Shown here in pieces: positions 1,114 to 8,659 of a stretch of DNA of 16,108 nucleotides. Where the stretch lies: contig RXOD01005066.1 in the NCBI GenBank assembly GCA_005223375.1, positions 1 through 16,108 of the forward strand, given 5' to 3'. Below the pieces are notes generated by a model. That model worked only from the letters and a program-made list of their open reading frames with translations. It did no database searches and had not been told where the DNA came from. The position numbers were made by a program, and so were the translations under genes. The stretch comes from Amoebophrya sp. AT5.2. Taxonomy: Eukaryota > Sar > Dinophyceae > Syndiniales > Amoebophryaceae. Position 1 is the first letter of the stretch, and each line of letters starts with the position of its first letter.

Positions 1114-4100
1114 ATGGCGGACGGTCTCGCCGGTGCTTTTCGCGCCCGGCGTGGCGGGCCGGCACTGTTGGCCGTGGTCCCTGGTGCTGCTGCAATCTCA
1201 AGCAAAAACAGCGCAAGAGATGGGGCTCCGTCTTCGCCGCGATCGGGCACGACAACATCCAGATTTCAGTTTTCATCGCGCCTCGATTTGCAGAATTTGC
1301 AGAAGTCATCAAACACAGGCTCTAAACAGCTCCTGCAGATCCAGATGCAGCTCCCATCAGCACGTGGTGCGGTGACGCCGACAACGCCGTCCGCTCGCGG
1401 CGCCCCTCGTGGCGCGCCCCCTGCGGCGATACTGAAAATGGCGCGCCGGGGCCGGGGGCGAAGTCGGAGTCCGTCGCCGGCGCAGGATGGCGCGACAACA
1501 GAAGTACTAAAGAACGCGCCCTCGCCTCCTTCTGCTGCAGAAGTTGTAGCGTCTCCGTCAGCGAGGAAGGCCCCTCTCCCAGCAACTTCACCCCGACCAC
1601 CGTCGGCGCCGTCGTCTGCGAAGAAGCGCGCCCCTTCGTTGTTAAATTCGTCGCAGAAGAGGCAACTCGCAAGGAAGAAACGGCAACCCATGTCCGAAGT
1701 GATGGGCTCGTCGGGAGTAACACCGCCAGAAAGCGCAACCAGTTCGGATCGCAGCGGGCGGAAAGAACCGTCGAGTTCGTCGTGGTCGAGAGGGAATGTT
1801 GGGACCAGAAATGCGAGCGCATGTCGCGCTGGACGAGTGGATCATGATGCGGGAGCACGGGCGGGACAGGGGTCCACTAAAGAAGACGAACGAGAAGGCG
1901 GACCGCAGCAGCCATCGTGGCGGGCAACACTGGGAAGCACAGCGCCGTCGATGTTCCTCGCCGGGGTCCCGGGACCGAAAATAGGTAAAGCTATAAGTAT
2001 GCAGTATTTATTTATTTCTTGAGTACTGGTGTTCTTCTTCTTGCCCTGTCCTGTGTTCTTGGGTTGGTAGCATCTATTGGGAGGGGGCTACCCAGCACCA
2101 GCTTTCCTCCGCTCTGCGATAAGGATAACTACGCACTGGACTGGCGCTGGTGCTCAAACACAAACGAAGCGCTCCGATAGAGCGGTTTTGCTCTTGTTGA
2201 TGTCGATGTTTCAAAAAACGCAACGACGCCCACACCTCGCAACAAAGGTCTCTTCCGTCCCCCCGGGTTCGGGGCCCTCCGCGCGGTGCCGCTTCCGGCG
2301 AGTGATCAGTTAAACGCGAATCTCCCAATGTCCCCGAAGTCGAGCGCAAGAGCCGCAGCAGCGGGAAAATCCTCGCAGGAACTCCACGAGAGGAAACGGC
2401 TGGCCATCCCCCACATTAACATGTCCCACAAGTCTATGGACCAAATGAACCAACACGCCCAAGAGTTCTCCGCAAACTTGAGCGAAATTCGGACGCAGCT
2501 GTCGGGACGATTGCACGTATCTATTTCGAGTTTTCTGGGGATGAAAAAATTTTGATCACACCCACACGTAAATCTAAATGTAAGTAAATCGAGTACCACT
2601 TGTCGCGTGTCGTGTTATTAAGTTTAGCGATTTAGAAGCTTCATTGATTACCGGCGTCGCCTACATTCGCTTGTAAAAGTAAATCGAGTACCACTACCAC
2701 TCACTCACTGTCACTGATACTGAAAGAATAAGAAACTTCTGATATGCGTATAAATGTAACTTTCGTTGGAGGCGTTACCCGCAATTCAAACGCAATAAAA
2801 CAGACGAGTCGCGTGCAGCCTGCGAAGCCGATGACCGAGGTGGACCTTGTCGCTGCTTTGAAACCCAACCCGCGGCCGCCGTCCTCGCGGCAGGACGGTT
2901 CTACGCCTCAAGCAGGTCAGCAGCCCACTACACCAAGACGGAAGGACACGTTTCAGACCACGGAGGTGACTGAGAAACCCGGCGGGATGCAAACCCAGCA
3001 AACGGCGGCCGAAATAGAGCAACAACAGCGGGAAAAAGAGAATGAGGGATACCACCACGAAGGGGAACCTCTGTTCTTCGATCCTGTCGCTCTACAGGAG
3101 CATGCAGAGGAATTGGTCCGGGACGGCACCCAAAAGAAGTGGCTGCACTACCAGGCGCAGAAACTTCCGCCCGGTGTGATCGATGTGGTCGGCGGCGCGG
3201 GGCCGGCTGAGCTGGATGATGAAGAGAAACGCGGAGGTGGTAAAAAGCGGCGATCGCGCTCTGTGGATCGTCCTACATCTTACTCGTCGTCCACCACGAA
3301 CTTGCTGGGTGCAACGGTGGCGGACTTGAAAAACCTCGCGACCAAGGCGAAGGAGCACATCGCGAACGACCTCGCAAAGACGCCTATTTCGAGCCGGCCG
3401 GCGAAGATGCGGGCGCTGGGCCCCCCCGGTTATGAAGTGCACCACTACGACTACCACGACCAAAGCTTAACCCACCACCTAGGCGACGAAATTAACACAA
3501 TCAGGACCCATGTGAACGACATAGAAAGGTTTTACCAGCACCAGGAGCCCCCGCGTGCTGGTTCTACATCTACCACGACGAGGTCCGAGAAGGTTGAAGA
3601 AAAGGATGTCGCTGCAGCTACGGAGATGAAGGAGAAGAAGGTTGCACCTTCTGTCGGAGGTGCGGCACCATGTGGTCAAGGCTTGCTGACGTCACTTCTA
3701 TGGCGAGCTTTGCGATTTAATTTCGAAAAACTTAAAAAAAAATAAGCACAGACAGCAATATCAATAAGTGAGGGCGGTGGAGGACATTTCGACCGGGCGG
3801 TGTGTTCTTTTGCCGCTGGACGCCGCACGAGAATCGGGCCGGGGGGTCGAGGAGAGGGATGGGCAGGACCCTCTGCGAACCACCTCTGGCATGCCTACAA
3901 AAAAGGCCTCTTGCTTGCACCTGGCTACACCTAGATTCCGCAGGCGGGGAGGCGGAGGCCTCTGGGGATGCCAGTCTAAGTACTTGGTCCTTCTACTACA
4001 GGCATACCCAAGAGGCATAGCAGAAGCCCTCCACTTGCGGGCACCCCCAGACGTCTAGACCTCTCGGCACATCCTTCCAGCCCAAGCCCATGAGCCCCGC

Positions 4101-5988
4101 AGTAGAACCTATTGCAGATTTTTTAGTACTCGCAAATTAAGTCGCAAAGCCCGCCATAACTTCATCGTGCACTGGAGCATCGACCGCTTACTGCTCGGGG
4201 CTTCCCGAAGAATTCGGAGTTGTTTTCGGCGTTCAAGCAAACCGGCCGGATCCGGGAGGTGGTGGAGGAATACGAGCAAGAATTGGACTTGAAGGAGGAA
4301 CAGGCAGCTGCCACAGGTGATGAAAAAAAAGAGAACAAACCGGACGGGTTGCTGCAGCACCCCAGTGCAATCAAGCAATTTTTTCAGAGCGAAAATGCGA
4401 GGAAGGGGGTCCTTCACAGTTCAGCGGGCGTCCGCGGCCAGGGTCAGACAGCAGCGAAAGATGGTCACGCAATAGAACCAGCAGAAGCTGCTGCAGCTGC
4501 AGCTGCACCACAAGCGCAAAAAAGCGAGGAAGAAGCTCCGCAAGTTGACGTCGTACACGCGGCAGCCAGCCTTTTAGCCGAGCAGCAGCCGTGGAGTCAC
4601 CTCGACGAAAAGCAGTGGCCCGCGCACGTCGAGCGACTTGATTCCGAGCTCCCGCGGGTGAGCGTCACGGGCGGCCACATCCATCCTGCTCACCACCATG
4701 CTCTTGGTAGCAACGAAGCTGGCTCGTCTTCCAAAGAAACCACGGAGCTCCCGCACGAGCAAGCCCTGACTGTGCAGAGCTACAACGTGCATGACGGGAG
4801 TAGTACTAGAGAGGCCGCTGTTGAGGCAGCGAACCCGCTGCCCCGGAAGGAGCTGGTAACCGGGTGGGTCGCGGAGGAGGAGGAAGGACGTATCGTCTGG
4901 TATCCCGTGTTTTCGCCGGCGTCGTTGCACCACGAGCGGCTGGAGACGCGGACCCACTTTCCGGCGGCGGAAATGTTGGCGGGCGCAATGCGGGGAACAA
5001 AGGGCGCGGACGCGCAGCAGGAGGAACAGGAACGCGAACAGGATGGCTCGTCACGATCTCGATCACCACGAAGCCCAAGAACTCCCAGGCCACCAAGAGT
5101 AGATGCCGTTGACGTCGACAACGGAGGACAGGAGACGGGTAGCGACAAGATGGAGGAGTTCCATAATTTTGACGACAGTTCCGTGTACCATGGATCCAAG
5201 GACGCTCCGACGCAGGTGCAGGATGATCGTGGAGGTCTGACGGGCAGCGAAGAAGTAGGAGCTGGTGCCGATAATATGATCGCTGCACCGGCACCACGCG
5301 CAGGCAAGAAGGTTGTCCCTGCAGCGTGGATGAACAGCCCTCGCACGACGCCCAGGAATAGCCCTCGCACGACGCCGAAGTCCACGACGGTGACGAGAAA
5401 CGGAGCAGAATCGCGGGAGGACAAGCCAAGCAGGAAATCGACCGTGCTCGCCGCGACCGCCGTGCGCACCGGAAGTGAGCGCAAATTTGCTCACGCCGTA
5501 GGGGCACCTCTGAGGATGAAAGCAACCCCAACCGTGGGCGTGGCCGCGAAAGTAAAACTACTTAAAAAACCTGGCTCTTCAGGTTCAGCTGACGCTAACC
5601 TAGACTGAGTCGTAAAAAGCTATTTGACCAAAACAATAACTTTCTCGCCCAGCTGCACATTAAAAACACATATACTCGCTTTCTGTGTTGATTCTTTCGT
5701 CAGGGCGGCGCGTCGCTTCAAGCTACAAGAAGGAAAAACACGGGCGGCAGCACGAAGCTCTTCTACAACGAGGGGTCTGGTACTGGTAGTGCGTCCTCCT
5801 CCTCTCCGTCACGTGCGCGGACAGGACGAGTCAATGGTCGCTCCCCCTCAAACCCTGCTGCGGACCTGGACCCGTCGGCGTCTTCACGGGGAGCGAAACC
5901 TGAAGACCGTACTAGCCCTCCGCTTGCAACACCAAACGCGAAGACGACGAGAACGCAACAGCGCAAGCAGGGAGGAGGGGCTGTATGA
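1114..5988 (+). CDS. Large basic Ser/Pro/Arg-rich protein, five-exon model with one introner
   Basis: Proposed exons are 1114-1984, 2248-2516, 2804-3698, 4164-5551 and 5704-5988. They sum to 3708 nt, or 1235 aa plus TGA, and every junction keeps phase. The start is the first ATG of the open frame (MADGLAGAF). The protein looks largely disordered. It has an SR-type patch (RGRGRSRSPSPA, about residues 111-122), a basic KKRRSRS stretch near 526 that could be a nuclear signal, an acidic helical segment after the third junction (VVEEYEQELDLKEEQ), an Ala run near 785, a second SRSRSPRSPRTP patch near 973, and a duplicated SPRTTP unit near 1069. No enzymatic domain is recognised. SR patches are typical of nuclear RNA-associated proteins, but that role is only a guess. 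Confidence differs by junction: exon 3 to 4 is strongest, exon 4 to 5 is good, and exons 1 to 2 and 2 to 3 are moderate. Exon 1 or exon 2 (from ATG 2328) could instead belong to separate genes. Confidence 0.55.
1985..2247 (+). other. Intron 1 of the large gene, GT-AG, phase 1
   Basis: The donor AAAATAG/GTAAAG is close to consensus. The acceptor CAACAAAG/GTCTC has no clear pyrimidine tract, which weakens the call. The join converts ATA G|GT into Ile-Gly and links PGPKI to GLFRPPGFGAL in frame. Stops in the downstream frame up to 2180 exclude nearly all other acceptors. If the intron is wrong, the frame ends at 2022 and a new gene could start at ATG 2328. Confidence 0.5.
2517..2803 (+). other. 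Intron 2 of the large gene, GT-AG, phase 0
   Basis: Donor GCAC/GTATCT and acceptor AATAAAACAG/ACGAG join two coding frames in phase 0. Retaining the intron gives a TGA at 2553-2555. A second in-phase acceptor, GTGCAG, ends at 2818. An ATG at 2744 lies inside the intron and could be an alternative start for the downstream exon. The intron carries a 19-bp direct repeat, listed separately. Confidence 0.55.
2582..2695 (+). repeat. 19-bp direct repeat inside intron 2
   Basis: AAGTAAATCGAGTACCACT is found exactly at 2582-2600 and 2677-2695, 95 bp apart. The second copy is followed by a micro-tandem ACCACT. The copies bracket a 76-bp spacer. Either a segmental duplication or flanking repeats of a small insertion would explain them. 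Confidence 0.8.
3699..3723 (+). repeat. Left terminal inverted repeat of the introner
   Basis: These 25 bases match the reverse complement of 4134-4158 at 23 positions. The two mismatches are transitions at positions 8 and 18. An A-rich run follows and loosely matches the T-rich run inside the right end. Confidence 0.9.
4134..4158 (-). repeat. Right terminal inverted repeat of the introner
   Basis: Reverse-complement partner of 3699-3723, with 23 of 25 positions identical. In the pre-mRNA the two ends could pair and bring the two ACTTC copies together. This is inferred from complementarity. Confidence 0.9.
5336..5376 (+). repeat. 24-bp coding tandem duplication (SPRTTP unit)
   Basis: AGCCCTCGCACGACGCC starts at 5336 and again at 5360. 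The 24-bp period preserves the frame and gives SPRTTPRN followed by SPRTTPKS in the large protein. It looks like a recent in-frame duplication within a disordered Ser/Pro/Thr segment. Confidence 0.85.
5552..5703 (+). other. Intron 4 of the large gene, GT-AG, phase 0
   Basis: Donor GCGAAA/GTAAAA and acceptor TGATTCTTTCGTCAG/GGC are both phase 0. The frame beyond the acceptor has coding character (KLFYNEGSGTGS, then Ser/Pro/Thr-rich) and stays open to TGA 5986-5988. Without splicing the protein would instead end at 5608. Reading through is the alternative, because the segment 5552-5605 (KLLKKPGSSGS) is also coding-like. Confidence 0.6.
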
Positions 5989-7248: not shown

Positions 7249-7339
7249 GGTTGATGAGACACGAGTTTGCACCATCAAGTAATTTGATATGTAAAATCTT
7301 TTTTCATTAAATATAAATACGGTTACGGTGCACGTGCAG

Positions 7340-8659
7340 ATGCAGAAAGTAAGAGGGCGGCATCTCGGAGGACTCGACCCACTGCCTGGATCGACCTATC
7401 GCCGCGTCCACGGATGGTGGGGCCTCCAGCGCGACAACTGTAATTCTTTTTGGCACTTGCGACCGAGAACGAACGTCGAGCCGAGGAAGGACCACCACTG
7501 GGGCTTCCTTCGCACGACTCTGAAGAAGAAGACATTCAACATTTTCAACGAGCCACCCGAGCGGAGAAAACTAAAAGACTTAGCATACCGACCGATACTC
7601 AGCTACGCGAAGCACTACTACGGACCAATCCTCCAACTTGCGTCAAGAGTCGTTAACGAAATTCTCGAGCTAGACCCCGAACTCTCGCGCCATTTTTTCA
7701 CGAAGACGGCGGACGTCCTGCAGTTTGTAAAGAACGCGGAGAGGATGGCGGCCGCGGCGGGCGAGCAGATTGGTGTCTGCGCCTGCGACGTGAAGGACTT
7801 TTTTACCAATTGCGATCTGGATGAAGCTCTCGTCCTGATTCGGGACGCCATCGCAAAGTTTAAGCGGGAAACGGGTGCAGTTTGGGCAAGGACCACCAAG
7901 CTTCTAGGAGGACACCTCCCGACTTTTCACGGGAAATCGCGCGACTACATAGTCCAGAAAGGCAAACGACTGCAGAGAAGGGTCGCGCGCATTACTTTCA
8001 CGAAGCGGAAACCTTCGCAGCACCTCTACAACTACATCCACCTTGACGACCTTGCGGCCGTGCTGAAACACGACGCCGACCATTGTTACCTCCGCGCGCT
8101 CGGCCACGTGTTCTCGCAGGAACACGGTGCGCCGATGGGCTCATACACGTCCACCCCCTTCAGCAACGCATATGCGCTATACCATGAAGTAAGGAAGGGA
8201 AAGCTCGCACACGAATCAGCCCGGAGGTGGTGTGACGACAAGTTGTGCGTGTACTTCGTGAACCATGGACCCCCCTCTGTCATGTCGCGGGGGTTCTACC
8301 CCGGTTGTGAGCTTATTCCCGACGGCGACGACCAGCTAGTTTATACCGGACTCAACATACGAGTTAGCGACGAGGAGAAGAGTCTCGACACGGTGGCAAG
8401 ACTCACGGGGAAGCCGATTGCTAGCGTTTTCAGCGCCGGCATCCGGAGACGACAGCGGGGCATCGTGAGAGGCCACCTAACGCGACTACGATTGAGTTCC
8501 ACAATACCCCCAATCGAAGCAACCTCTGGAATTCTGGACCAGCTACAGCAGCAGGGATACGACCTGAGGATTCTGCGCCAGGAAGCCACGCACTTCCTCA
8601 ACTGCATGCGGGAGGAATATGGAGAAGAGGGATGCGGTTTCGCGGCAGCAGGAAGCTGA
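7340..8659 (+). CDS. Reverse transcriptase, Penelope-like type, no endonuclease seen
   Basis: The frame encodes 439 aa from ATG 7340. It is open slightly further left, but only with GTG. Reverse transcriptase motifs appear in the expected order: a finger motif YRPILSY (84-88 region), motif A CDVKDFFTNCDLDEAL with catalytic Asp150, motif B FSQEHGAPMGS (about 258-268) followed by NAYALYHE, motif C RWCDDKL with the Asp pair 299-300, a GLNI strand, and RRRQRGIVRGHLTRLR near 370-384. FTN-LDEA after motif A and the YHE after motif B are typical of Penelope-like elements. About 110 residues separate motifs A and B, longer than usual. No GIY-YIG endonuclease follows, and none is visible N-terminally. 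The key aspartates are intact and there are no internal stops. It could be an endonuclease-lacking retroelement, a 5'-truncated copy or a domesticated gene. A-rich sequence follows the stop. Confidence 0.85.
   Translation: MQKVRGRHLGGLDPLPGSTYRRVHGWWGLQRDNCNSFWHLRPRTNVEPRKDHHWGFLRTTLKKKTFNIFNEPPERRKLKDLAYRPILSYAKHYYGPILQLASRVVNEILELDPELSRHFFTKTADVLQFVKNAERMAAAAGEQIGVCACDVKDFFTNCDLDEALVLIRDAIAKFKRETGAVWARTTKLLGGHLPTFHGKSRDYIVQKGKRLQRRVARITFTKRKPSQHLYNYIHLDDLAAVLKHDADHCYLRALGHVFSQEHGAPMGSYTSTPFSNAYALYHEVRKGKLAHESARRWCDDKLCVYFVNHGPPSVMSRGFYPGCELIPDGDDQLVYTGLNIRVSDEEKSLDTVARLTGKPIASVFSAGIRRRQRGIVRGHLTRLRLSSTIPPIEATSGILDQLQQQGYDLRILRQEATHFLNCMREEYGEEGCGFAAAGS

Follow-up and report, generated by a model that had tools for sequence, protein, structure and literature searches.

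According to the excerpts of Farhat et al. (2021; PMC7789003) on which we draw, more than 60 % of the introns of Amoebophrya A25 and A120 are non-canonical, with support from RNA-seq. Among these non-canonical introns, 11 and 30 %, respectively, carry inverted repeats of 8–20 nt together with direct repeats of 3–5 nt; in A120, for which 29,850 repeated introns were counted, the inverted repeats begin with TAT. Of 89 spliceosomal proteins, the same excerpts name six as not found in A25 and A120, and they give GC contents of 47.8 % (A25), 51.2 % (A120) and 55.9 % (AT5). Amoebophrya ex Karlodinium and AT5 are described in an excerpt of PMC12005148 as having mainly GT-AG introns; for AT5, PMC7789003 gives a share of 99.98 % GT-AG. 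Introner families with terminal inverted repeats (TIRs) and target-site duplications were described by Gozashti et al. (2022; PMC9860276), whose method allows for opposite orientations. As far as the cited sections go, the splice sites of such introners derive from the element, the duplication or the flank, and complex recruitment from the flanking exon is included. Introners in dinoflagellates were reported by Roy et al. (2023), as covered in excerpts of the review PMC11453091.

The window analyzed here, a stretch of 16,108 nucleotides, is contig C1270 of a genome of 50.7 Mb in 2759 contigs and harbors an element of this kind. Like the introner elements of A25 and A120, for which a hairpin was proposed, it is repeated, ends in inverted repeats, is bordered by a direct repeat and mostly lacks GT-AG; in contrast to them, its inverted repeat measures about 25 nt instead of 8–20 nt, and the family comprises about 40 insertions as opposed to the 29,850 repeated introns of A120 (excerpts of PMC7789003). 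The repeats share TAT at their start with those of A120, a comparison that covers this triplet of the A120 motif. Removal is backed by RNA-seq in A25 and A120 and is predicted from DNA sequence for the family presented here. The window has a GC content of 53.9 %, and the examined loci together one of 55.1 %, which differs from A25 and A120 and is close to the value given in the same source for AT5. TIRs, a duplication and many genic copies are shared with the DNA-transposon introners of other eukaryotes, as excerpted from PMC9860276 and PMC11453091; unlike the introners of PMC9860276, 19 of 20 copies examined here have no GT-AG pair in register. Euglenid non-conventional introns (PMC4770533, in part) likewise have non-canonical borders that vary and an RNA structure by which the ends are brought close to each other, here a predicted one with a z-score of −3.57. 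They belong to another lineage, and the cited part of PMC4770533 does not mention TIRs or a duplication. The host is not a euglenid, and the dinoflagellate spliced leader is present in its genome. Miniature inverted-repeat transposable elements (MITEs) are short and non-coding, have TIRs and a duplication of fixed length, and need not be removed from transcripts; the family matches them in being short, non-coding and TIR-bearing with a fixed-length duplication.

In the window, the element extends over 460 bp on the plus strand (3699–4158), as delimited by sequence, genome matches and coding score. It is flanked by two copies of the target-site duplication ACTTC (3694–3698 and 4159–4163, plus strand), both read directly from the sequence. 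The left TIR, TATGGCGAGCTTTGCGATTTAATTT (3699–3723, plus strand), comprises the first 25 nt and matches the last 25 nt, which were identified by this comparison as the right TIR (4134–4158, minus strand), at 23 of 25 positions. The interrupted gene lies on the plus strand. Its upstream coding part reaches from 2804, a start taken from the public gene model P0001, to 3698, and its downstream coding part from 4164 to 5608. The upstream open frame (2732–3745) enters the element and encounters a stop at 3743, inside it; the downstream frame (4160–5608) has no ATG before position 4973. Within the element (3699–4158) the mean coding score was below zero in all three plus-strand frames. Omission of 465 nt, i.e. 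the element and one copy of the duplication, resulted in an open frame of 803 codons. The six frame-compatible registers at the boundary of the window copy are AC-TA, CT-AA, TT-AC, TC-CT, CT-TT and TA-TC, and GT-AG, GC-AG and AT-AC are absent from all of them. RNA corresponding to positions 3694–4163 was predicted to fold with its ends paired. Neither Rfam matches in the window nor Pfam matches for six other window frames were obtained. Elsewhere in the window, a 454-codon frame without Pfam match (7295–8659) resembles a reverse transcriptase by eye and is a candidate for such a protein.

All figures that an earlier note had given for this locus, namely the 23 of 25 matching repeat positions, the ACTTC duplication and the 465-nt joining of frames, hold on re-reading of the sequence. 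The same is true for its statements that no canonical register exists and that the downstream frame is without a nearby start codon. The note had regarded inverted repeats, duplication and frame restoration as three independent signs of an intron. Whenever an insertion creates a duplication within a reading frame, removal of the insert and one copy restores that frame; frame restoration thus follows from the duplication and is no independent evidence.

A search for sibling copies, which had been proposed in the earlier note, was run in the element's own genome and was successful. The window element matched at least 67 pieces, as counted from 40 of the 46 candidates. With up to three mismatches allowed, a 26-base pattern taken from the end of the repeat had 54 matches in the genome and none for the reversed control, which rules out a chance inverted repeat. 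TAT begins 50 of these 54 ends, a triplet that the pattern itself required. Overall, we estimate about 40 insertions, with duplications and splice ends listed and copies located inside other genes. Family ends were found at 44 of the loci examined; two further loci (L026 and L028) match the family and have no recognizable end. At most three pairs among the 44 (L021/L034, L036/L055 and L031/L066), each sharing its duplication, may represent single insertions split between contigs. Many contigs terminate in or shortly past an element, as is expected for a repeat. When the diverged copy L020 served as query, 43 matching pieces were obtained, all on contigs already matched by the window element.

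Both ends are present in 21 copies (19 plus L083 and L032), and the inverted repeats of the 19 match at 17–24 of 25 positions. The 5-bp duplication, whose sequence varies between copies, is identical in 12 of the 21, including L032. Four of its five positions agree in six copies (L009, L015, L018, L023, L027 and L083) and fewer than four in three (L006, L014 and L030). TIRs combined with a target duplication of fixed length define a TIR DNA transposon or MITE, and both are present. Among the 54 end-pattern matches, no facing ends lay more than approx. 1 kb apart, so that no autonomous copy was detected there. The interior of the copies is not uniform. In a comparison with three other copies, the sequence that L083 (1226–1531) shares with them is limited to approx. 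25 nt at either end, with a different interior in between. L023 (2030–2872) and L027 (2071–3065) contain part of the family interior and an extra 540 and 605 nt, approximately, without match elsewhere among the loci examined.

Further inverted repeats occur around or away from the element, in L008 (approx. 1320–1345 with 2208–2233) as well as in L004, L026, L027 and L038; possible explanations are amplification chimeras and foldback structures. Additional introner families, as present in A120, are not claimed. A scan for TIRs, duplication and frame gain over 167,537 bases of loci and four further loci yielded 8 candidates versus 3 in the direct-repeat control; five were ends of the family itself, one lay inside a family copy, one enclosed such a copy (L004) and one was located elsewhere (L072). 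An earlier scan of the 167,537 bases had given 40 inverted pairs, 23 of them with a frame of at least 150 codons, and 103 direct pairs, five of them with such a frame. The candidate at L072:1262 is 354 nt long, with a 4-nt repeat and inverted ends that differ from those of the family. Its removal would join coding frames, which may be due to chance.

The copies are closely associated with genes. In 17 of 19 copies, the coding score was highest when exactly the element and 5 nt were left out, as compared with omission of one or two additional nucleotides; exact removal was not favored in L002 and L005, and the scores of L003 and L030 were weak. At 32 of the 44 sites, and not at the other 12, an open frame extends up to the element from at least one flank that scores 10 bits or more as coding, a threshold chosen after inspection of the table. 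Five copies are embedded in proteins that can be followed on both sides of the joint. In L006, the match to Exostosin_GT47 reaches 90.7 bits from profile position 142 in the joined frame and 81.9 bits from position 169 in the unjoined one; exostosin structures match downstream of the joint only. In L014, a Lipase_3 Pfam match (residues 353–494 of the piece) spans the joint; the structure match ends before it, so that the Pfam match alone crosses it. Without its element, L083 encodes a continuous SulP transporter protein that comprises the last membrane segment and the STAS domain. A plant sulfate transporter and relatives from animals, solved transporters among them, can be aligned with it through the joint. 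The methyltransferase motif of L020 is gapless at the joint relative to a homologous protein with 42 % identity. In L010, the insert separates KLCV and AG, and the sister repeat reads KLCVAG. The cysteine-rich protein of L010 contains two repeats that resemble each other; the first is uninterrupted, and the second is split by the element in a register permitting GT-AG.

Other hosts were recognized from one side. L082 borders a dynein heavy chain. Its match to dynein axonemal heavy chain 10 (506 bits) begins at the first codon past the element, and that to an unnamed chain of 8glv (523 bits) at the second. In L022, a homocysteine S-methyltransferase domain is followed by a pterin-binding domain, and we read the host as a methionine-synthase-like gene on the basis of this predicted domain order. 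One-sided matches were also obtained for L025 (sialyltransferase), L039 (Polysacc_synt_2), L035 (EamA) and L009 (acyltransferase). No Pfam family was assigned to L015, L020 and L027, and L010 and L018 had Pfam matches below cut-off only. Two matches of the L027 frame to solved structures, with E values of about 0.3, were too weak for use.

Of the 19 copies, 15 reach a coding score of 14 or higher; eight of these are inserted in sense and seven in antisense orientation to the gene; this count omits the four weak copies L002, L003, L005 and L030. L032 is a further antisense copy, which brings the numbers to eight and eight. In the excerpts of PMC7789003, no statement on introner orientation was found. 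To judge from the presence of these copies, orientation and perhaps also the interior seem to be irrelevant to tolerance in genes.

Taken together, the element inserts with a 5-bp duplication and has about 40 relatives, most of which adjoin coding frames and which occur in genes in both orientations. Conserved proteins read continuously once the element and one copy of the duplication are omitted. Persistence in conserved genes, and not the restoration of the frame, is the real argument for an introner. With a probability of roughly 70 %, we interpret the element as a non-autonomous, MITE-like TIR DNA transposon that would behave as an introner. The earlier proposal of an introner captured with both ends intact is borne out as regards the transposon-like structure, the ends and the siblings in genes; removal from the transcript is a prediction.

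The most probable course of events begins with transcription, which would pass through the element. The two repeats would then pair to form a predicted stem with the duplication at its foot, and the element would leave the transcript at the duplication or no more than a few nucleotides away from it, keeping the host genes functional. Less surely, it might be the location of the ends at the foot of the TIR stem, rather than GT and AG, by which they are recognized. Our guess is that the exons would be joined at this foot, probably by a spliceosome with weak sequence demands and with the help of the stem. In L010, L014 and L032, the duplication happens to provide the letters for an ordinary GT-AG pair at the same place.

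Ordinary introns are found next to such copies. Between exon pieces of the Polysacc_synt_2 gene in L039, which carries a copy of the element, two introns (reverse complement, approx. 1005–1200 and 1515–1706) are GT-AG by eye, and the public model P0001 contains a GT-AG intron in the window (GTATCT..AAACAG, 2517–2803, plus strand). Normal introns thus coexist with the element family, and a relaxed spliceosome, as considered in the earlier note, is unnecessary for the genome as a whole. Alongside these GT-AG introns, the family may be removed from mRNA by virtue of its ends alone, in either orientation, with any interior and without GT or AG, a proposal that we make tentatively.

The splicing machinery of the host was inspected in the genome sequence. 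The dinoflagellate spliced leader had 50 matches with up to two mismatches, 18 of them perfect, and none in the control. U6 was found, as was a U1-70K domain with 28.7 bits. U1 snRNA was not found in the genome, and neither was U2. Since U2 was missed as well, nothing follows about U1, and a loss of U1 is not accepted in view of the U1-70K domain. A pattern search of the genome for 18S rRNA was negative.

These data bear on an alternative in which the element is removed from the RNA without a spliceosome, by a stem-dependent endonuclease and a ligase as might act on euglenid non-conventional introns. The predicted end-paired stem, the variable borders, the general lack of GT-AG and the two orientations would suit such a pathway, and a second route is conceivable because the ordinary introns read here are GT-AG. 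Nevertheless, we consider it unlikely. U6 and the U1-70K domain are present, nearly the whole set of spliceosomal proteins was found in A25 and A120 (PMC7789003, in part), and tunicate spliceosomes can cope without GT-AG according to an excerpt of PMC13326754.

A still less likely alternative is an ordinary canonical intron, in which GT and AG of the flanks or the element are used at the expense of a few codons lost, gained or exchanged. Introners with complex splice-site recruitment from the flanking exon, as in PMC9860276, offer a precedent. We searched 20 copies, all those with two ends but L005, for GT-AG pairs. A pair in exact register exists in one copy (L010, duplication GCAGG), and a pair within the duplications in three (L010, L014 and L032), adding one codon in L014 and L032. 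Within approx. 18 nt of the ends, 11 of the 20 have an in-frame, stop-free GT-AG pair, and for these canonical splicing near the ends is possible; the other nine, among them the window copy, have none. In the window, there is no such pair within 30 nt, as compared with two to four for five arbitrary control dinucleotide pairs, and a single one within 50 nt (3653–4177), which would remove 60 nt; the controls give four to eight at this distance. For L020, one GT-AG choice preserves length and is conceivable. L083 offers three choices within 18 nt, each of which deletes or replaces VGKLE, and this sequence aligns with a conserved stretch of known SulP transporters.

Two restricted forms of canonical splicing were not accepted. 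A requirement for AG in the duplication would be compatible with 20 of 31 sites against an expected fraction of 0.498 (p = 0.07); the 31 are the 32 sites with a coding flank minus L006, in which the left and the right duplication disagree. The second form, an AAG acceptor that is fixed in the repeat at 9 nt from the right end and combined with a GT in the flank, has a frame-compatible GT within 18 nt in L010, L020, L023 and L083, and thus fits only four of the 20 copies.

The only annotation found for the window gene follows the canonical rule. P0001 (EukProt), the sole public protein found for this gene, maps to 1796–5317 of the window and uses the GT at 3428 and the AG at 4564 for an intron on the plus strand that spans the element (3428–4564); in addition, it omits 4901–5089. 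Its name resembles that of an ab initio model. The intron spanning the element would also discard roughly 670 nt with positive coding scores: the dropped stretches reach 0.092 and 0.143 per codon, as compared with 0.179 and 0.109 for the neighboring accepted parts and −0.128 for the element. In our view, P0001 comes from a predictor that was tied to GT-AG and had to circumvent the element. Searches among 5.8 billion protein sequences, in which proteins much longer than the query were passed over, did not return any spliced product; they gave this model with the longer GT-AG intron, one distant relative and, in one case, no match.

Plain insertion of a transposon that breaks the gene, with no splicing and a frame restored on paper only, is improbable. 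Insertion by itself would account for frame restoration, and the 12 sites without a coding flank of 10 bits would be consistent with it. However, divergence of the longer matching pieces from the query amounts to 13–35 %, and together with the imperfect duplications in 9 of 21 copies this indicates that many copies are not recent. Despite this age, frames of 748, 618, 533 and 420 codons are open around the imperfect-duplication copies L014, L023, L018 and L009, respectively, and beside the copy in L082 a dynein frame of 354 codons, which is highly conserved, has remained intact.

Ciliate internal eliminated sequences are excised from DNA exactly at a short direct repeat, a pattern that exact removal of this element would suit; however, a separate somatic nucleus is not known from dinoflagellates, and precise DNA excision in some nucleus or life stage is hardly credible. 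The Amoebophrya precedent also speaks against it, as it acts at the RNA level in the excerpts of PMC7789003.

Returning to the element itself, which is real and very probably an introner, we call it a new family of the same kind as the Amoebophrya introner elements. No prior description of this particular family was found by title and abstract in the open-licence literature. Its novelty is smaller than the earlier note claimed, since such elements have already been published for Amoebophrya (PMC7789003, in part). To the published kind it usefully adds a small family size, insertion in either orientation, one copy whose interior differs, and hosts that are conserved genes.

The family provides a clean natural experiment on the recognition of introns without GT-AG in basal dinoflagellates: about 40 insertions in both orientations, many 5-nt boundaries, one different interior and conserved hosts with a joint that can be checked. 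If removal by the ends alone is true, an end-defined, stem-dependent mode of intron removal would operate beside the normal one. Annotation of small dinoflagellate genomes that is restricted to GT-AG would then hide such introns, as P0001 seems to do.
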